Positions 30,140 through 39,939 of a stretch of DNA of 64,000 bases are shown one piece after another. Source of the DNA: Pseudomonas neuropathica (GTDB lineage Bacteria; Pseudomonadota; Gammaproteobacteria; Pseudomonadales; Pseudomonadaceae); contig NZ_JACOPX010000003.1 of assembly GCF_015461835.1 (NCBI RefSeq), positions 248,001-312,000 on the forward strand. The letters run 5' to 3'. The translations under genes were made by a program, and so were the position numbers. Under the pieces are notes generated by a model. It was not told the DNA's origin and did no database searches. It worked only from the letters and a program-made list of their open reading frames with translations. Each line of letters starts with the position of its first letter. The stretch's first letter is position 1.

Positions 30140-31648
30140 TCAGGGTTTGTTGGGGATGCCGTACTTGCGCAGGCGATGGGCGATGGCCGTGTGCGAAGTT
30201 TGCAGGCGGCTGGCCAGTTGGCGGGTCGAGGGATAGCTGACGTAGAGTTTTTCCAGCAGCGTTTTTTCGAAGGACTCGACCGCTTGTTCGAGGCTGTCGA
30301 CATCGCTGTCTGACTGCCGTGCGACCGAGGTGCCGGCAATATCGAGATCGCCAATATCCACCAGGCTGCTCTCGCAAATCGCCGCCGCGCGGAAGATCAC
30401 ATTCTGCAATTGCCGCACGTTGCCCGGCCAGCGGTTGCCGAGCAGGGCCGGGTAAGTCCCCGGGGCGAGGCGGCAGACCGGGCGCTGGATCTGCGCGCAG
30501 GCCTGCTGCATGAAATAGCGCGCCAGCAGCAAAATATCCTGCCCGCGCTCGCGTAGCGGCGGCACTTCAACGTTGAGCACGTTGAGACGATAGAACAGGT
30601 CTTCACGGAACAAGCCTTCGCTGACCATTTTTTCCAGATCGCGGTGGGTCGCGCTGAGGATGCGCACGTTGACCTTCACTTCGCGATCACCGCCCACGCG
30701 GCGGAAGCTGCCGTCGTTCAAGAAACGCAGCAGCTTGGCCTGCAAGTACGGCGACATCTCGCCGATTTCATCGAGGAATACCGTGCCCTGGTTGGCCAGT
30801 TCCATCAGCCCCGGTTTACCGCCGCGCGCTGCTCCCGTGAAGGCGCCGGGGGCGTAGCCGAACAGTTCGCTTTCGGCGAGGTTCTCCGGTAGGGCCGCGC
30901 AGTTGAGGGCCAGAAACGGTGCACTGTGTCGCGTGCTGATGGCGTGGCAGGCGCGGGCGACCAGTTCTTTACCGGTGCCGGTTTCGCCCTGGATCAGTAG
31001 CGGCGCATCGAGGGCGGCAACCCGTTGCGCACGAGCCTTGAGTGTGCGGATCGCTGGGGACTCGCCGAGCAGCGCATCGAAACCTTCGGCATGGTCGTGG
31101 TGCAGCGCCGAGAGTTGTTCGCCGATGCGGTTTGGTTGATACAGGGTCAGCAGGGCGCCGGCGTCGGTGATCGGCGTGGCGTCGAGCAGCAAAGTCTGGC
31201 CGTTGACGGTGATCTCGCGCAGCGGCAGACGGAAGCCATGTTCGAGCAGGGTGTCGAGCAGGCCGGGGTCGTTGAACAGTTCAGAGACGCTTTCACCCGC
31301 AGGCTCACGACCATAGAGTGCGATCAACGCCGGGTTGGCCAGCAGCACTTTACCGGCGCTGTCGAGGGCGAGCACCGGATCGGTCATCGCCGCGAGCAAG
31401 GCATCGAGCTGCAAGTGCCGACGCTGGCCGGGGAGGATGTCGACCACGGTCACCGCCTCCACGCCGAGCACGCGAAACAAAGCATCTTTCAGCTCTTCGA
31501 GCACTTGCGGGCTCAGGGTCGGCGCATCGATATAGACGTTGGGCGGGATCATCTCCACCGCATCCAGATTGAGATTGCGCCCACCGAGGATAGCCAGGAC
31601 TTCCTGGGTGATGCCGACGCGGTCGATGAAGCTGACGTGGATACGCAT
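30140..31648 (-). CDS. gcsR: TyrR-like sigma-54-dependent activator GcsR
   Basis: A 502-residue enhancer-binding protein. In order it has an ACT domain (residues 1-70, MRIHVSFIDRVGITQEVLA), a PAS domain (about 80-190), a linker, the AAA+ domain with Walker A GETGTGKE and the sigma-54 contact loop GAFTGA intact, and a C-terminal TyrR-type helix-turn-helix (STRQLASRLQTSHTAIAHRL). P. aeruginosa GcsR responds to glycine and activates the gcvH2-gcvP2 operon. Here it sits directly upstream of that operon, with matching operators and promoter. An intact GAFTGA separates it from TyrR proteins that work only with sigma-70. Confidence 0.92.
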   Translation of the reverse strand: MRIHVSFIDRVGITQEVLAILGGRNLNLDAVEMIPPNVYIDAPTLSPQVLEELKDALFRVLGVEAVTVVDILPGQRRHLQLDALLAAMTDPVLALDSAGKVLLANPALIALYGREPAGESVSELFNDPGLLDTLLEHGFRLPLREITVNGQTLLLDATPITDAGALLTLYQPNRIGEQLSALHHDHAEGFDALLGESPAIRTLKARAQRVAALDAPLLIQGETGTGKELVARACHAISTRHSAPFLALNCAALPENLAESELFGYAPGAFTGAARGGKPGLMELANQGTVFLDEIGEMSPYLQAKLLRFLNDGSFRRVGGDREVKVNVRILSATHRDLEKMVSEGLFREDLFYRLNVLNVEVPPLRERGQDILLLARYFMQQACAQIQRPVCRLAPGTYPALLGNRWPGNVRQLQNVIFRAAAICESSLVDIGDLDIAGTSVARQSDSDVDSLEQAVESFEKTLLEKLYVSYPSTRQLASRLQTSHTAIAHRLRKYGIPNKP

Positions 31649-31910: not shown

Positions 31911-32273
31911 TTATTCGAAGTGCTCAAGATTGACCGGGTCGCCGGACTTCATATCAAGTTGCTTGCGGATGTCTTCAAACATCATGTCGTAATGCTTGTG
32001 AACCGAGCCGATCTGGCTGTGCGTCTTGGGAATGCCGTACTTCTCGGCGATTTTCGTCACATTGTTGGCAAAGTTGTAGGCCTCCTCTTTGGGCAGGAAG
32101 AAGGTCTCTTTCATGTCCTTGCCCTGCATGTTGCCATGCAGGGTGAACTGTATCCCTTTGCCTTTTTGCGGATGGCTGAAAACTTCATAGTCGAGGTGCA
32201 CGTTGTAACTGACGTCATCCGGCGTCAACGCATGCCGCTCGATGTGCAGGCGACCGGGTTCGAATTGGGCCAT
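31911..32273 (-). CDS. DUF5064 family protein
   Basis: A 120-residue protein without signal peptide or membrane helix. It starts MAQFEPGRLHIERHALTPDD and matches what I recall of the DUF5064 family found in Pseudomonas. AGGAG lies 6 bp before the ATG. It follows arcC by 62 bp on the same strand and may be the last gene of the arc operon, but a link to arginine metabolism is only positional. Confidence 0.75.
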   Translation of the reverse strand: MAQFEPGRLHIERHALTPDDVSYNVHLDYEVFSHPQKGKGIQFTLHGNMQGKDMKETFFLPKEEAYNFANNVTKIAEKYGIPKTHSQIGSVHKHYDMMFEDIRKQLDMKSGDPVNLEHFE

Positions 32274-32335: not shown

Positions 32336-33265
32336 TTATCGGTAAGTGATGCCGGGCTTCGCCGTGGTCACTCGAGTACCGGCAGTACCCTGGACAATCG
32401 CTTCGATGTCCGCCAGCGAACCGATCACCGCAACCTTGCCAGTATGGCGCGCAAATTCGCAGGCTGCCTGCACCTTCGGCCCCATCGAGCCGGCAGCGAA
32501 GCCGAGGCGTTCCAGCTCATCCGGGTGCGCTTCGGCAATGGCTTTCTGCGTCGGTTTGCCGTAATCGATGAACGCCGCGTTGACGTCCGTGGCAATCACC
32601 AGCAGATCGGCTTCCAGTTGCTCGGCGAGCAGCGACGAGCACAGGTCCTTGTCGATCACCGCTTCGATACCTTTGAGATTGCGGTTCTCGTCATACATGG
32701 TTGGAATGCCGCCACCACCGGCGCAAATCACGATGCTGCCCTTGTCCAGCAGCCACTTGATCGGGCGGATTTCGAAGATGCGTTTTGGCCGTGGGCTGGC
32801 GACGACTCGGCGGAATTTGTCGCCGTCCGGGGCAATCGCCCAGCCTTTTTCGGCGGCGAGTTTTTCTGCTTCAGCCTTCTCGTAAACCGGGCCGATCGGC
32901 TTGGTCGGGTTCTGGAAGGCCGGATCCTTGGCGTCGACTTCCACCTGGGTGAGCAGGGTGGCGAACGGCACTTCGAAGTCGAGCAGGTTGCCCAGTTCCT
33001 GTTCGATGATGTAGCCGATCATGCCTTCGGTTTCGGCACCGAGCACGTCCAGCGGGTAAGGGGTGACGGAGGTGTAGGCCGCCGCTTGCAGCGACAACAG
33101 GCCGACTTGTGGGCCATTGCCGTGGGCGATGACCAGTTGATTGCCGGGATGGATCTTGGCGATTTGCTCGGTGGCGATGCGGATGTTGGCGCGCTGATTG
33201 TCAGCGGTCATCGGTTCACCACGGCGGAGCAGGGCGTTACCGCCCAGCGCTACGACGATACGCAT
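32336..33265 (-). CDS. arcC: Carbamate kinase
   Basis: A 309-residue enzyme that forms ATP from carbamoyl phosphate, the last step of the arginine deiminase route. Motifs include [16 protein letters not shown] at the start, [11 protein letters not shown] and [12 protein letters not shown]. It is third in order after arcA and arcB. A family C REP pair lies between arcB and arcC. Confidence 0.96.
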
Positions 33266-33294: not shown

Positions 33295-33380
33295 TGTAGG
33301 AGCTGCCGAAGGCTGCGATCTGTTGATCTTGATCTTGAACAAGCAAAGTCAAAAGATCGCAGCCTTCGGCAGCTCCTACA
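33295..33380. repeat. REP-like inverted pair, family C
   Basis: Facing TGTAGGAGCTGCCGAAGGCT arms between arcB and arcC, within the operon. Confidence 0.87.
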
Positions 33381-33415: not shown

Positions 33416-34426
33416 TTACAGATCAGCCAGGGTCGAGACCAGAATCGCCTTGATCGTGTGCATGCGGTTTTCCGCTTGCTCGAAGGCGATGCAGGCTGGC
33501 GACTCGAACACGTCGTCGGTCACTTCGATGCCGTTTTTCAGGTGCGGATACTGCTCGGCGATCTGTTTGCCGACCTTGGTATCACTGTTGTGGAACGCCG
33601 GCAGGCAGTGCATGAACTTGGTGCGCGGGTTGCCGCTGGCTTTCATCAGTTCAGCGTTGACCTGATACGGCAGCAGTTGCTGGATACGCTCGGCCCAGGC
33701 TTCCACCGGCTCGCCCATCGACACCCAAACGTCGGTGTGGATGAAGTCGACGCCTTTGACCGCCGCTTTCGGGTCTTCAGTCAGGGTGATACGTGCGCCA
33801 CTTTCTTCTGCATATTTGTGGCAACGCTCGACCAGATCATCCAGTGGCCACAGGGCTTTCGGTGCACAGATACGCACGTCCATGCCGAGTTTGGCGCCGA
33901 CCAGCAGCAGCGAGTTGCCCATGTTGTTGCGCGCATCGCCGAGGTAGGCGTAGCTGATTTCGTGGATCGGCTTGTCGGCGTGTTCACGCATGGTCAGCAC
34001 GTCGGCGATCATTTGCGTCGGGTGGTACTCGTCAGTCAGACCGTTGAACACCGGCACACCGGCGAACTTGGCCAGCTCTTCGACGATTTCCTGTTTGAAG
34101 CCACGGTACTCGATGGCGTCGTACATGCGCCCCAGCACACGGGCGGTGTCTTTCATGCTTTCTTTGTGGCCGATCTGCGACGAGTTCGGGTCGATGTAGG
34201 TGACGTTGGCGCCTTGGTCATAGGCCGCCACTTCGAACGCGCAACGGGTACGGGTCGAGGTTTTTTCGAAGATCAGGGCGATGTTGTTGCCCTTCAGGTG
34301 CTGTTGCTCGGTGCCGGTGTATTTCGCGCGTTTGAGGTCGCGGGACAGATCGAGCAGGTAACGCAGCTCACGTGGGGTGTGGTGTTCGAGGCTGAGCAGG
34401 TTACGGTTGTGGATGTTGAACGCCAT
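33416..34426 (-). CDS. arcB: Catabolic ornithine carbamoyltransferase
   Basis: A 336-residue enzyme that splits citrulline with phosphate into ornithine and carbamoyl phosphate. It has the carbamoyl-phosphate motif [12 protein letters not shown], the ornithine-site [10 protein letters not shown] and the domain-joining [12 protein letters not shown]. Length and context mark it as the catabolic form. AAGGAG precedes the ATG. Confidence 0.96.
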
Positions 34427-34495: not shown

Positions 34496-35752
34496 TTAGT
34501 AATCGATCGGGTCGCGGATGATCGGGCAGGTCATGCAGTGGCCACCGCCACGGCCTCGGCCCAGTTCACCGGCGCTGATGGTGATGACTTCCACGCCGGC
34601 CTTGCGCAGCAGGGTGTTGGTGTAGGTGTTGCGGTCGTAGCCGATGACCACGCCCGGTTCCACGGCCACCACGTTGTTGCCGTCGTCCCATTGCTCGCGT
34701 TCGGCGGCGAAGCTGTTGCCGCCGGTTTCCACCACGCGCAGCTTCGGCAGATTGAGGGCTTTGGCCACGGTGTCGAGGAAGGTGCCTTCTTCGCGGCGGA
34801 TGTCGATGCCGCCCTGTTTGCTTTCGTCAGGGCGCAGGGTGAAGGCGACGATCTGGTTGACCACTTCCGGGAAAATTGTCACCAGGTCGCGGTCGCAGAA
34901 GCTGAACACGGTGTCCAGGTGCATCGCCGCGCGGGACTTCGGCAGGCCGGCAACGATGACTTTTTCCACGGCTTTGTTTTTGAACAGGTTCAGCGCCAGT
35001 TGGCCGATGGCCTGACGGGACGAACGTTCGCCCATACCGATCAGCACCACGCCGTTGCCGATTGGCATGACGTCGCCGCCCTCGAGGGTGGAGCTGCCGT
35101 GATCCTTGTCCGGGTCGCCGTACCAGATCTCGAAATCGGCATTGGTGAACTGCGGGTGGAATTTGTAGATGGCGGTGGCCAGCAGGGTTTCCTGACGACG
35201 CGCCGGCCAGTACATCGGGTTCAGCGTCACGCCACCGTAGATCCAGCAGGTGGTGTCGCGGGTGAACTGGGTGTTCGGCAGCGGCGGCAGAATGAAGCTC
35301 GAATGGCCGAGGAAGTCGCGGAACATCTGGATGGTCTTGCCGCCGAAACTGTCCGGCAGATCATCGGCCGATACGCCGCCGATGAGGAATTCGGCGATGT
35401 GTCGCGGCTCGAGGCTTTTCAGCCAGGATTTGACTTCGTTGATCAGGCCCAGGCCCACCGAATCGGCGGTGACCTTGCGCTCGAGAATCCAGTCCAGCGC
35501 CTCAGGGATGGCGACGATGTCGGTCAGCAGGTTGTGCATTTCCAGCACGTCGATGCCGCGCTCGCGCATTTTGGTCACGAAGTCGAAGTGGTCGCGCTTG
35601 GCCTGGGCCACCCACAGCACGTCGTCGAACAGCAGTTCATCGCAGTTGTTCGGGGTCAGCCGCTGATGGGCCAGACCTGGGGAGCACACCATGACTTTGC
35701 GCAGTTTGCCGGCTTCGGAATGGACGCCGTACTTAACTTTTTCCGTGGTCAT
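34496..35752 (-). CDS. arcA: Arginine deiminase
   Basis: A 418-residue enzyme that hydrolyses arginine to citrulline and ammonia. The catalytic cysteine lies in the C-terminal [14 protein letters not shown]. The substrate-binding segments [12 protein letters not shown] and [23 protein letters not shown] are present. I chose the ATG at 35752 ([15 protein letters not shown]); the seven residues upstream are not conserved. Spacing to arcD is 33 bp. Confidence 0.97.
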
Positions 35753-35785: not shown

Positions 35786-37213
35786 TTACAGAGTCAGGAA
35801 GCCGTCGTAGAGACCGTAGGCCGCCACCAGGGCACCCACGACCACTGCGGCGAAAATCAGCTTCTCGACGTTAGTGAAAACCGGTTGTTTGAGTTCCAGC
35901 TTGGCTTTGGCGAACAGGATCGCGCCAGGTGCGTAGAGCAGGGCCGAGAGCAGCAGATACTTGATCCCGCCGGCATACAGCAGCCACACCGCATAGATCA
36001 GCGCGATGCCGCCGATAATCAGGTCCTTGCGCCGCTCAGCCGCGAAGCCTTCGTAGCTTTCGCCGCGCACCGCCAGCAGCAGGGCATAGGCCGCCGACCA
36101 CAGGTACGGCACCAGAATCATCGAAGTGGCGAGGTAGATCAGCGACAGGTAGGTACTGGCCGAGAACAGCGTGATGATCAGGAAAATCTGCACCATCGCG
36201 TTGGTCAGCCACAGGGCGTTGACCGGTACGTGGTTGGCGTTTTCCTTGCGCAGGAACTCGGGCATGGTGTGGTCTTTGGCAGCGGCGAACATGATCTCCG
36301 CACACAGCAGCACCCACGACAGCAGCGCCCCCAGCAGCGAGATGATCAGACCGACGCTGATCAGCACTGCCCCCCAGTGACCGACCACATGCTCAAGCAC
36401 GGCGGCCATCGACGGGTTCTGCAGTTTCGCCAGTTCCGGTTGGGTCATGATGCCCAGCGACAGCACGTTGACCAGCACCAGAAACAGCAGCACGGTGATG
36501 AAACCGATCACGGTGGCCTTACCCACGTCGGAGCGTTTTTCGGCGCGGGCCGAGAAGATGCTCGCGCCCTCGATACCGATGAACACCCACACGGTGACCA
36601 GCATCATGTTGCGCACCTGGTTCATCACGCTGCCCAGATTCGGGTTTTTGATGCCCCAGATGTCGGCGGTGAAGATGTCCAGTTTGAAGGCGAACACCGC
36701 GATCAACACGAACAGCAGCAGCGGTACGACCTTGGCGACCGTGGTCACCAGGTTGATGAACGCCGCTTCCTTGATCCCGCGCAGCACCAGAAAGTGCACG
36801 GCCCACAGCAGCACCGAGGCGCCAATCACCGCAGCAACGGTGTTGCCCTCACCGAAAACCGGAAAGAAATAGCCGAGAGTGCTGAACAGCAGAACGAAGT
36901 AACCGACGTTACCCAGCCAGGCGCTGATCCAGTAACCCCAAGCGGACGAGAAACCCATGTAATCGCCAAATCCGGCCTTGGCGTAGGCGTAGACACCACC
37001 GTCCAGGTCAGGCTTGCGATTGGCGAGGGTTTGAAAGACAAAAGCGAGGGTGAGCATGCCGACAGCAGTGATGGCCCAACCGATAAGTACCGCACCGACG
37101 TCGGCGCTGGCGGCCATGTTTTGAGGCAAGGAGAATATCCCGCCACCGATCATTGAACCGACTACCAATGCAACCAGTGCACCTAGTCGTAGTTTTCCGG
37201 GAGCTTCAGACAT
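35786..37213 (-). CDS. arcD: Arginine/ornithine antiporter ArcD
   Basis: A 475-residue APC-superfamily inner-membrane exchanger that imports arginine and exports ornithine. The first helix carries GSMIGGGIFSLPQNMA, and twelve to thirteen helices can be counted. I chose the ATG at 37213 because GGAG lies 8 bp before it; another ATG lies 6 bp upstream. It leads arcDABC on the minus strand. An ANR/Fnr-like box lies about 63 bp upstream. A close paralogue is divergently transcribed at 37652. Confidence 0.95.
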   Translation of the reverse strand: MSEAPGKLRLGALVALVVGSMIGGGIFSLPQNMAASADVGAVLIGWAITAVGMLTLAFVFQTLANRKPDLDGGVYAYAKAGFGDYMGFSSAWGYWISAWLGNVGYFVLLFSTLGYFFPVFGEGNTVAAVIGASVLLWAVHFLVLRGIKEAAFINLVTTVAKVVPLLLFVLIAVFAFKLDIFTADIWGIKNPNLGSVMNQVRNMMLVTVWVFIGIEGASIFSARAEKRSDVGKATVIGFITVLLFLVLVNVLSLGIMTQPELAKLQNPSMAAVLEHVVGHWGAVLISVGLIISLLGALLSWVLLCAEIMFAAAKDHTMPEFLRKENANHVPVNALWLTNAMVQIFLIITLFSASTYLSLIYLATSMILVPYLWSAAYALLLAVRGESYEGFAAERRKDLIIGGIALIYAVWLLYAGGIKYLLLSALLYAPGAILFAKAKLELKQPVFTNVEKLIFAAVVVGALVAAYGLYDGFLTL

Positions 37214-37275
37214 TTGCATGACTCCATTGCAGGAGAGAAGAGATCACAGCGTAGTTCTGTTGTCTGTTCAAACAG

Positions 37276-37289
37276 CTGACGTAGATCAG
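37276..37289. promoter_or_regulatory. ANR/Fnr-type box upstream of arcD
   Basis: CTGAC-N4-ATCAG on the plus strand (CTGATCTACGTCAG on the minus), against the consensus TTGAT-N4-ATCAA. It is placed so that a start at about 37241 would put it at -41.5, as for oxygen-controlled arc operons. Confidence 0.72.
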
Positions 37290-37569
37290 TGCATGGTCAC
37301 ATTCCATTGTTAATGAATGACTTAGGCTTCGGCTGAAGGCATAAAGATCCTGCCCGCAAGGCCCGTCCTAGAGGCGTTGTGGCTACATCTTTGGGAATGG
37401 CTATTATTACTTTCGAATTATCACGCTAGTTCTTTTTCAGCTTTTGGCAAATTTTCTGCCTCTGTTTTCAGTACAGAATTGAATTATCGGGATCAGCGCA
37501 CAAAACTGTCTTAACGTGCTAGGCGTTAGCGTCATCCGCTATATATAAACAGGCGTTAATTGGCGTTAC
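37290..37569. other. Divergent arcD/arcD-like promoter region, middle part
   Basis: AT-rich DNA between the two ANR-like boxes. It contains TATATATAAA (about 37540-37549) and several repeated GGCGTTA segments (37523, 37552 and 37562). No gene or ribosome-binding site was seen. Confidence 0.45.
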
Positions 37570-37583
37570 CTGATAAACGTCAT
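37570..37583. promoter_or_regulatory. ANR/Fnr-like box upstream of the second antiporter
   Basis: CTGATAAACGTCAT, very like the arcD box read on its own strand (CTGATCTACGTCAG). It lies 68 bp before the ATG at 37652, at the same relative distance as for arcD, with a possible -10 TAATAG at 37603. Confidence 0.6.
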
Positions 37584-37651
37584 CTACCTTTATCCGTTTA
37601 GTTAATAGTTGTTACAAATGCACGCTCACCACACCTCAAAGGGAAACTGAA

Positions 37652-39079
37652 ATGTCGCAACCGACGCAAAAGCTGCGATTAGGCGCGTTGATCGCCCTGG
37701 TGGTGGGTTCGATGATTGGCGGGGGGATTTTCTCGCTGCCGCAGAACATGGCGGCGCGCGCCGATGCCGGGGCGATCCTGATCGGTTGGGGGATTACCGC
37801 GATCGGCATGCTGACTCTGGCGTTCGTCTTTCAGACCCTGGCCAATCGCAAGCCGGAACTGGACTCGGGCGTCTATGCCTACGCCAAGGCCGGGTTTGGC
37901 GACTACATGGGTTTCTCGTCCGCCTGGGGTTACTGGATCAGTGCGTGGCTGGGCAACGTCGGCTATTTCGTGCTGCTGTTCAGTACCCTCGGTTATTTCT
38001 TTCCGGTGTTCGGTCAGGGCAACACGCCAATCGCCATCGGCTGTGCCTCGGTGTTGCTGTGGGCCGTGCATTTTCTGGTGATGCGCGGGATCAAGGAGGC
38101 GGCGCTGATCAATCAACTGACCACGGTGGCCAAAGTCGTGCCGCTGATCATGTTCATCGTCATCGCGGCGGTGGCGTTCAAGGCCGACATTTTTACCCGC
38201 GACATCTGGGGCACCAGCAACCCGAATTTCGGCGGGGTAATGGATCAGGTGCGCAACATGATGCTGGTCACGGTGTTTGTGTTCATCGGCATCGAAGGCG
38301 CCAGTGTGTACTCGGCGCGGGCGGAGAAACGCAGCGACGTCGGCCGCGCCACGGTGATCGGTTTTATCGGCGTGCTGGCGCTGCTGGTGCTGGTCAACGT
38401 GCTGTCGCTAGGAATCATGAGCCAGCCGGAACTGGCGAATTTGCAGAACCCGTCACTGGCGGCGGTGCTTGAGCACATCGTCGGCCCGTGGGGCGCCTTG
38501 TTGATCAGCATTGGCCTGGCGATTTCCCTGCTCGGCGCGTTGTTGTCGTGGGCGCTGCTGTGTGCGGAGATTCTCTTCGCCACGGCGAAGGACAAGACCA
38601 TGCCGGCGTTCCTGAAAAAGGAAAACAAGAATCACGTCCCGGTCAATGCGTTGTGGCTGACCAACGTGATGATCCAGATCTTCCTGTTGATCACGCTGTT
38701 TTCGGCGGGCACTTACACCAGTCTGATTTATCTGGCGTCGTCGATGATTCTGGTGCCGTACTTGTGGTCGGCGGCTTACGCGGTTCTGCTCAGCGGGCGT
38801 GGCGAAACCTACGAACACGCCTCGGCCGAGCGCACCAAGGATCTGCTGATCGGTGGCATTGCCCTCGGTTACGCGGTGTGGTTGTTGTATGCCGGTGGGG
38901 TGAAGTATTTGCTGCTGTCGGCGCTGTTGTATGCGCCAGGGGTGATTTTGTTTGCCAAGGCCAAACATGAGGCGGGTGAGCCACTGTTCACTCATGTCGA
39001 GAAGGGCATTTTTACCTGCGTGGTCATCGGCGCGGGGCTGGCGGCGTACGGGTTGTACAGCGGCGTGCTGTCGTTGTGA
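37652..39079 (+). CDS. Second ArcD-like basic amino acid antiporter
   Basis: A 475-residue APC-family exchanger, closely similar along its whole length to the divergent ArcD (both start KLRLGALxALVVGSMIGGG and share GIFSLPQNMA, SSAWGYWISAWLGNVGYF and SVYSARAEKRSDVG-type segments). This suggests a duplication that has since diverged. The GGGAAACTGAA site precedes the ATG. Substrate is probably arginine/ornithine or a related pair, by inference. Its stop codon overlaps the GTG start of the alkA gene by four bases. Confidence 0.9.
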   Translation: MSQPTQKLRLGALIALVVGSMIGGGIFSLPQNMAARADAGAILIGWGITAIGMLTLAFVFQTLANRKPELDSGVYAYAKAGFGDYMGFSSAWGYWISAWLGNVGYFVLLFSTLGYFFPVFGQGNTPIAIGCASVLLWAVHFLVMRGIKEAALINQLTTVAKVVPLIMFIVIAAVAFKADIFTRDIWGTSNPNFGGVMDQVRNMMLVTVFVFIGIEGASVYSARAEKRSDVGRATVIGFIGVLALLVLVNVLSLGIMSQPELANLQNPSLAAVLEHIVGPWGALLISIGLAISLLGALLSWALLCAEILFATAKDKTMPAFLKKENKNHVPVNALWLTNVMIQIFLLITLFSAGTYTSLIYLASSMILVPYLWSAAYAVLLSGRGETYEHASAERTKDLLIGGIALGYAVWLLYAGGVKYLLLSALLYAPGVILFAKAKHEAGEPLFTHVEKGIFTCVVIGAGLAAYGLYSGVLSL

Positions 39080-39939
39080 GGTTGTCGCTTGAGTATCGGC
39101 CGCCGTATGACTGGGACGCGATGTTGGGGTTTCTGGCGGCACGGGCGGTGGTCGGGATGGAGGTCGTGGTCGACGGTGTGTATTCACGCAGCATCGGTTT
39201 GGACGGGCTTCATGGCACGGTTTCAATTTGGCCTGAGGCAGGGAATGCCTTGGCCGTTGAGCTGGATTTTCCTGATCCGTTGGTGGTGCCCGAGATCGTT
39301 GTCAGGTTGCGGCGGATGTTTGATCTGGATGCGGATCTGGCGCTGATGCAAGGGCATCTGGCCAATGATCCGTTGCTGGCGCGGTTGATCGCCGCGTGCC
39401 CGGGGTTGCGGATTCCCGGGGCGTGGGATGGTTTGGAATTGGCCTTTCGCGCGGTGCTCGGGCAGCAGATTAGCGTGGTTGCGGCGATTCGCCTGGCGGG
39501 GAAACTGGTTGCGCAATATGGCGCGCCGCTGGATTCGGGCGTGCCGGGGCTGACTCACGTGTTTCCCGAGGCGAACGTGTTGGCGGCGGCAGATCTGGCA
39601 ACGCTGGGCATGCCGAAAAGTCGCGGGCGGACGCTGTCAGGTGTGGCGCAGGCGTTGCTCGATGAGCCTGACTTGTTTGAACCGCATCGTGACAGTGGGG
39701 TGGCGCGGTTGTTGGCGTTGCACGGGATTGGCGAGTGGACGGCGCAGTACATTGCGTTGCGGCAGTTGCGTGATCTGGATGGGTTTCCCTATGGCGATGT
39801 CGGGTTGTTGCGGGCATTGGAAGTGTTGGAGGGCGTGCGGCCGACGACGCGGGAGTTGTCTTTGCGGGCAGAAGATTGGCGGCCTTATCGAGGTTATGCG
39901 GCGCAGCTTTTGTGGACATCTTTGAGCCGGGCGGACTGA
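39076..39939 (+). CDS. alkA: DNA-3-methyladenine glycosylase, AlkA type
   Basis: A 287-residue base-excision glycosylase that removes alkylated purines. Residues 1-110 form the AlkA_N domain. The HhH-GPD domain follows, with FRAVLGQQISVVAAIRLAGK, the hairpin LLALHGIGEWTAQYIALR and the catalytic-aspartate region GFPYGDVGLL. The start is GTG within the GTGA overlap with the antiporter gene, so translation is probably coupled. AlkA is more often next to ada, which is not seen here. Confidence 0.92.
   Translation: MRLSLEYRPPYDWDAMLGFLAARAVVGMEVVVDGVYSRSIGLDGLHGTVSIWPEAGNALAVELDFPDPLVVPEIVVRLRRMFDLDADLALMQGHLANDPLLARLIAACPGLRIPGAWDGLELAFRAVLGQQISVVAAIRLAGKLVAQYGAPLDSGVPGLTHVFPEANVLAAADLATLGMPKSRGRTLSGVAQALLDEPDLFEPHRDSGVARLLALHGIGEWTAQYIALRQLRDLDGFPYGDVGLLRALEVLEGVRPTTRELSLRAEDWRPYRGYAAQLLWTSLSRAD

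Follow-up and report, generated by a model that had tools for sequence, protein, structure and literature searches.

A second, divergent arcD beside the Pseudomonas arginine deiminase operon encodes a paralog with phenylalanine at a predicted substrate gate

The 64,000-nucleotide (nt) stretch of Pseudomonas neuropathica contig NZ_JACOPX010000003.1 analyzed here (positions 248,001 to 312,000; hereafter, the window) contains two arcD genes arranged head to head. One of these, arcD1, is the first gene of an arcD-arcA-arcB-arcC operon on the minus strand and is co-directional with the three enzyme genes; the second, arcD2, diverges from the operon, begins 438 base pairs (bp) away and is followed by an alkA-like gene. 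Both genes are 1428 bp long including the stop codon, and their 475-residue products align by BLASTP without gaps (385/475 identical, 81%). An initial annotation of this DNA had described two very similar, divergent ArcD proteins of equal length, the second outside the arc operon; this description holds, and the copies are paralogs. For arcD1, we prefer the start at 37213 because the GGAG preceding a longer alternative, at 37219, is only 2 nt from that start. Both proteins exceed the curated cut-off (591 bits) of TIGR03810, the model for arginine-ornithine antiporters, and no further ArcD match was listed in this genome at E ≤ 0.001. Because this single model accepts both proteins under the name "arginine-ornithine antiporter", annotation conceals a difference between them.

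This difference lies at a residue that is predicted to gate the substrate site. ArcD belongs to the same superfamily as AdiC, the arginine/agmatine antiporter of known structure, to which ArcD2 residues 8-425 can be aligned (E 7.9e-39); AdiC works with arginine decarboxylation, whereas ArcD works with deimination. In AdiC, Trp202 is the proximal gate that sandwiches arginine, and it is reported to be kept in AdiC, PotE and CadB (PMC4970712). We mapped gate residues by sequence alignment to AdiC alone; an AlphaFold2 model of ArcD2 built from 29 sequences had a mean predicted local distance difference test score of 41.7 and was not used. The position aligned with Trp202, residue 209, is Trp in all distinct paired ArcD1 proteins (115/115) and in all single operon ArcD proteins (50/50). 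It is Phe in 119/119 distinct paired ArcD2 proteins, which thus lack the gate Trp of the operon type, a feature that is not a formal TIGR03810 criterion. Among unpaired copies, six members of the ArcD2 clade have Phe and 13 other orphans have Trp. At the remaining AdiC contact residues, taken from PMC5983779 (I23, S26, G27, A96, C97, N101, I205, W293 and S357), the aligned residues show no difference between ArcD1 and ArcD2.

The regulatory regions of the two genes also differ. As the initial annotation had observed, a box fitting CTGAT-N4-GTCA precedes each gene at a similar distance (Table 1). We assessed the conservation of these boxes in 115 distinct intergenic sequences from 116 complete arcD1/arcD2 pairs, after excluding 6 of 122 pairs as incomplete matches; the set is biased to close kin, 80 loci being the best matches of one search. 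On the arcD1 side, the TGAYNNNNRTCA core occurs within 200 nt of the start in 111/115 sequences, always at 64-70 nt, and one of the four sequences without it (L088) has a masked stretch there. On the arcD2 side, it occurs within the same distance in 15/115, with 12 of these cores at 73-77 nt. All 12 come from the close kin of the window, a group of 26 sequences in which ArcD2 shares 96% or more of its residues with the window's copy; 14 of these 26 lack the core. A conserved Anr box at promoter distance, as expected of a member of the Anr regulon, is therefore found for arcD1 and not for arcD2. Unpaired genes follow the same division: 49/51 unpaired operon arcD genes have the core at 64-85 nt (49/52 counting one gene of L156), the exceptions being L153, where the match begins at residue 27, and L234, whereas none of six unpaired arcD2-type genes has it within 500 nt upstream. 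The L156 gene, the first arcD of its locus and located beside an arcA that is 57% alike, is missing from our other counts; it encodes Trp at the gate and has no core box within 500 nt. In a published survey, arginine fermentation genes were reported in 24/28 species (PMC6588701), with an Anr box before arcD in 20 species; the P. putida subgroup and P. mediterranea were the only ones without it.

In the window itself the arcD2-side box is unusual: when the 200 nt upstream of arcD2 were shuffled with dinucleotides preserved, the TGAYNNNNRTCA core arose in just 48/5750 shuffles (0.8%). The aligned arcD2 promoters conserve something else, namely an ATAAACG motif, which the Anr-like box overlaps, and TTTAGTTAA. 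Within the box, columns of the N4 spacer agree with the window in 91-103 of 115 sequences, and the first three outer letters agree in 38-70. The conserved stretch containing these motifs is not an Anr palindrome and is probably a promoter or operator. The arcD2-side box is thus present in the window but is not kept logic of the pair, and the initial annotation's view that both copies kept or re-evolved their promoter logic is not supported for the pair in general. Judged from these alignments, the arcD1/arcD2 pair as such does not share Anr control, because the box is nearly universal on one side and rare on the other, where it shares a position only among close kin (12/115). A working Anr site may have been gained recently upstream of arcD2 in the window's own small group. 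Near-Anr sites with up to two mismatches number 41 in the window, against 17 expected, and the arcB-arcC spacer holds overlapping TTGAT-type half sites (33323-33342, plus strand).

The region upstream of arcD1 contains a further conserved element, TTGC-N18-TANNNT, which is found in 107/115 pairs, with the TA of the hexamer in 115/115 and its last T in 114/115. It also occurs at 142-211 nt in 18/51 single operon loci and may mark a second promoter for arcD1, from which a long leader would be transcribed. A conserved RNA in this leader (a small RNA or a leader structure) was considered and set aside: RNAalifold predicted no pairs in 51 diverse sequences, a result without power given that shuffled controls also yielded none, and an Rfam scan returned one chance-level match (E 3).

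Table 1. Genes and regulatory features of the arcD1/arcD2 locus, in window coordinates
Feature	Coordinates	Strand	Evidence or position
arcD1, operon ArcD, 475 aa, Trp209 (AdiC Trp202 position)	35786..37213	-	Open reading frame; TIGR03810 734.2 bits
arcD2, 475 aa, Phe209 at AdiC Trp202 position	37652..39079	+	Open reading frame; TIGR03810 736.1 bits
Anr-like box of arcD1, CTGATCTACGTCAG, conserved	37276..37289	-	62 bp from arcD1 ATG
Anr-like sequence before arcD2, CTGATAAACGTCAT, close kin only	37570..37583	+	68 bp from arcD2 ATG
Conserved non-coding stretch before arcD2, TTGGCGTTA..ATAAACGT..TTTAGTTAA	37560..37605	+	Column counts, 115 sequences
Promoter-like element toward arcD1, TTGC-N18-TANNNT (TAGCGT here)	37423..37450	-	~209 nt upstream
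arcA, arginine deiminase	34496..35752	-	NF002381 601 bits, TIGR01078 548 bits
arcB, catabolic ornithine carbamoyltransferase	33416..34426	-	NF002470 665 bits
arcC, carbamate kinase	32336..33265	-	NF009008 527 bits
alkA-like DNA glycosylase, start overlapping arcD2 stop	39076..39939	+	Pfam AlkA_N 128 bits

Beyond the features in Table 1, a DUF5064 gene (31911-32273) and a gene for a TyrR-like sigma-54 regulator (30140-31648) lie downstream of arcC on the minus strand, and several related loci also have an alkA match immediately after arcD2.

Phylogenetic analysis bears on the age of the pair. In a tree of 303 proteins (3 of 306 different proteins were left out because of stops or length), paired ArcD1 and paired ArcD2 form separate clades. 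In a 96-row tree built with that of the gate, position 209, masked, all 21 Phe types group in a single clade (Shimodaira-Hasegawa-like approximate likelihood ratio test [SH-aLRT] 98), and the paired ArcD1 of the genus joins the operon ArcD of other genera (SH-aLRT 100), with ArcD2 outside. Forcing ArcD2 beside the genus's own ArcD1, as a recent duplication would require, costs 28.6 log-likelihood units, and the approximately unbiased (AU) test does not reject this arrangement (p-AU 0.116). ArcD2 looks like an old paralog, not a fresh duplicate, and a simple recent duplication is disfavored by the trees, short of formal rejection. Recent duplication with gene conversion was likewise considered and is disfavored by the separate clades in both trees, to the same limit, and we saw no sign of gene conversion between arcD1 and arcD2. 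Median ratios of nonsynonymous to synonymous substitution rates are low for both genes (0.085 for arcD2 and 0.069 for arcD1, with arcD2 higher in 1073/1476 genome pairs), and both are therefore under purifying selection, arcD2 a little less so.

In our sample of the genus Pseudomonas, 72/99 genomes matched at 1e-120; 59 of these encode both Trp and Phe types, 13 the Trp type only and none the Phe type only. Match coordinates show a head-to-head arrangement of the two types in 56 of these. F and W types lie apart in genomes G013, G042, G063, G205 and G212. Broken Phe-type arcD remnants are visible elsewhere in two of the 13 Trp-only genomes (L332 and L333), with the operon kept. At the family level, 46/119 genomes matched at 1e-150, five of which (G121, G139, G156, G180 and G188) were not read in wide loci; in the loci read from other genera, the operon copy is present, sometimes together with a different orphan copy that retains Trp. 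Some of these Trp orphans have an Anr-type core at 67-68 nt (L196, L200 and L208) and others have none (L192, L194, L198, L206 and L210). Matches are few at greater distance: 4/274 genomes of the class sample at 1e-100, counting the window's own genome. In the phylum sample, the family model matched 46/398 genomes at 1e-100, of which 23 exceeded the model cut-off.

Among ArcD relatives in other Proteobacteria, we identified a deep clade that also has Phe at the gate position. An 89-row tree with the site masked implies two changes between Trp and Phe, and the AU test rejects one common origin for Phe (p-AU 0.023); the Trp-to-Phe change thus appears to have arisen separately in this clade. After removal of duplicate loci, matches of fewer than 380 columns and identical proteins, 29/43 rows of the clade lie within 5 kb of arcA and 0/43 near arcB or arcC. 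The 21 far Trp rows comprise 10 near arcA with arcB, 11 near none of these genes and 0 near arcA alone. Most loci in this count span about 4.4 kb, so that "no arcB" covers only the stretch just after arcA, and the Phe rows are not an even draw, one family having been sampled more deeply after Phe was seen there. Wider loci, of at least 10 kb (L284, L285, L288-L293, L299, L330 and L331), encode a Phe-gate protein and arcA without arcB or arcC; arcD-like genes often occur two per locus in this set. Sinorhizobium meliloti LMB1 has the order antiporter-antiporter-arcA, and the pSymA copy of strain 1021 has the same order. One of the two pSymA antiporter genes matched here is presumably SMa1668. 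In a study that names it adiC2, SMa1668 on pSymA was needed in symbiosis (PMC7268258).

The best explanation we can offer for this locus is that ArcD1 exchanges arginine for ornithine as the transporter encoded in the arcDABC operon, whose Anr-type box is conserved. For ArcD2, we infer from sequence comparison, tentatively and well short of certainty, a sub-specialized exchanger expressed outside the conserved Anr arrangement, with an altered counter-substrate for which citrulline is the leading candidate. The initial annotation's suggestion that the second copy could serve a different exchange is plausible, and the gate substitution supplies a residue-level reason. ArcD2 keeps almost all substrate contacts. 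With Phe in place of Trp, the proximal gate would hold the guanidinium side chain in a looser cation-pi clamp and might more easily handle a counter-substrate that is neutral or smaller. ArcD2 could then move citrulline in exchange for arginine from outside or ornithine from inside, exporting it when the deiminase outruns the carbamoyltransferase or importing it to feed ArcB and ArcC directly. We favor citrulline because the deiminase alone yields it, because the Lactococcus ArcD2 can perform arginine/citrulline antiport, if slowly, in experiments with a set membrane potential (PMC7818446), and because P. putida is cited as a citrulline excreter (PMC5300872). Phe at this place is also reported in LAT1 and Asc-1 (PMC5983779, PMC7048771). 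A broader proposal, which we regard as rather unlikely, is that a gate Phe, at the AdiC-202 position, defines a functional class of ArcD proteins, reached at least twice, in which citrulline is exchanged with arginine (or with ornithine). In Pseudomonas, ArcD2 would on this view be the route of citrulline export or uptake, and the arcD-arcD-arcA clusters of rhizobia and relatives would each be a one-enzyme arginine-to-citrulline module with its own exchangers.

Several observations weigh against these proposals. Citrulline exchange by the Lactococcus ArcD2 is reported to be about five times slower than ornithine exchange (PMC7818446), and citrulline release has been ascribed to ArcE rather than ArcD (PMC5300872). 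AdiC, with its Trp, also moves protonated citrulline (PMC6199258). Phe does not imply a neutral substrate either, because P. aeruginosa LysP, with Phe215 at the equivalent place, carries lysine (PMC12764776). The ArcD1 and ArcD2 subfamilies differ consistently at 23 positions, so that finding one of the ten contact sites among them is not improbable alone (about 0.39 by our own arithmetic), and TIGR03810 scores the two alike. For the deep clade, the arcA link of Phe is one clade and not many independent events, and ArcB and ArcC may be supplied by other loci. The four proteins scanned (from L289 and L330) score 542-552 bits, under the ArcD cut-off and above that of a wider basic amino acid/polyamine antiporter model. 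Finally, in P. vancouverensis (L105, 3602-7428), the interval from the TyrR-like regulator gene to an intact arcD2 lacks the operon, and alkA and the following genes remain. A genome-wide search there found neither arcA nor arcC, both of which were matched in two control genomes (arcB was not searched, and genome completeness was not given). Retention of arcD2 in such a genome speaks against an ArcD2 function that depends on the deiminase pathway.

Of the alternatives, one is that ArcD2 repeats the arginine/ornithine exchange of ArcD1, with unchanged substrates, and is kept for other timing, such as aerobic expression, in which case Phe would be a tolerated aromatic change. The high identity, the otherwise equal contact residues, the aromatic ring kept at the gate, scores above the equivalog cut-off for both copies and the differing upstream conservation are all consistent with this. 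We nevertheless consider it doubtful, though a serious candidate, given that the Trp/Phe division holds for every one of the 115, 50 and 119 distinct sequences, that there is a second Trp-to-Phe change elsewhere and that arcD2 persists in a genome with no arcA or arcC match. A further alternative is a general exchanger of cationic amino acids (lysine, ornithine, agmatine or putrescine) with no part in the deiminase pathway. In its favor are the persistence of arcD2 in P. vancouverensis, the Phe gate of the lysine carrier LysP and the genomes in which the two types lie apart. Strong ArcD family membership speaks against such a role, as does the presence of the Trp type in all 59 genus genomes with the Phe type, head to head in nearly all of them, and we judge it unlikely. 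We give very little credence to the possibility that the pair is a duplication with Anr promoter logic kept or re-evolved, both genes being switched on together at low oxygen. Both boxes are present in the window, that of arcD2 is rare in shuffles and a recent duplication is not rejected, but the core is scarce on the arcD2 side of pairs relative to the arcD1 side and absent before unpaired ArcD2-type genes, and the tree puts ArcD2 outside.

Comparison with known systems places the locus in context. The ArcD of P. aeruginosa was reportedly described by Verhoogt in 1992. This protein of an arcDABC operon shares with arcD1 its family and operon position, and the Anr-type control of the operon; arcD2 differs from it in having Phe at the AdiC-202 site, lying outside the operon and lacking a conserved box. 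Lactococcus lactis likewise has two ArcD paralogs at one arc locus, but both of its arcD genes sit in the same cluster with arcT and arcC2, unlike here. The L. lactis ArcD2 has been proposed as an arginine/alanine exchanger (PMC5300872). The arcD-arcD-arcA clusters of other Proteobacteria, such as that of S. meliloti pSymA, share the gate Phe and the ArcD-like gene pairs; their proteins differ in forming a separate clade, about 46-56% identical to ArcD1, in adjoining arcA without arcB or arcC and, where scanned, in falling below the ArcD cut-off. Among the papers listed in a literature search for a second Pseudomonas arcD, none dealt with it.

If it is true that one residue separates arginine/ornithine from arginine/citrulline exchange, specificity would be directly testable with a W209F/F209W pair in a widespread transporter family. 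Such a difference could also account for citrulline release by Pseudomonas and provide a role for arginine deiminases that have no ATP-forming steps encoded nearby.

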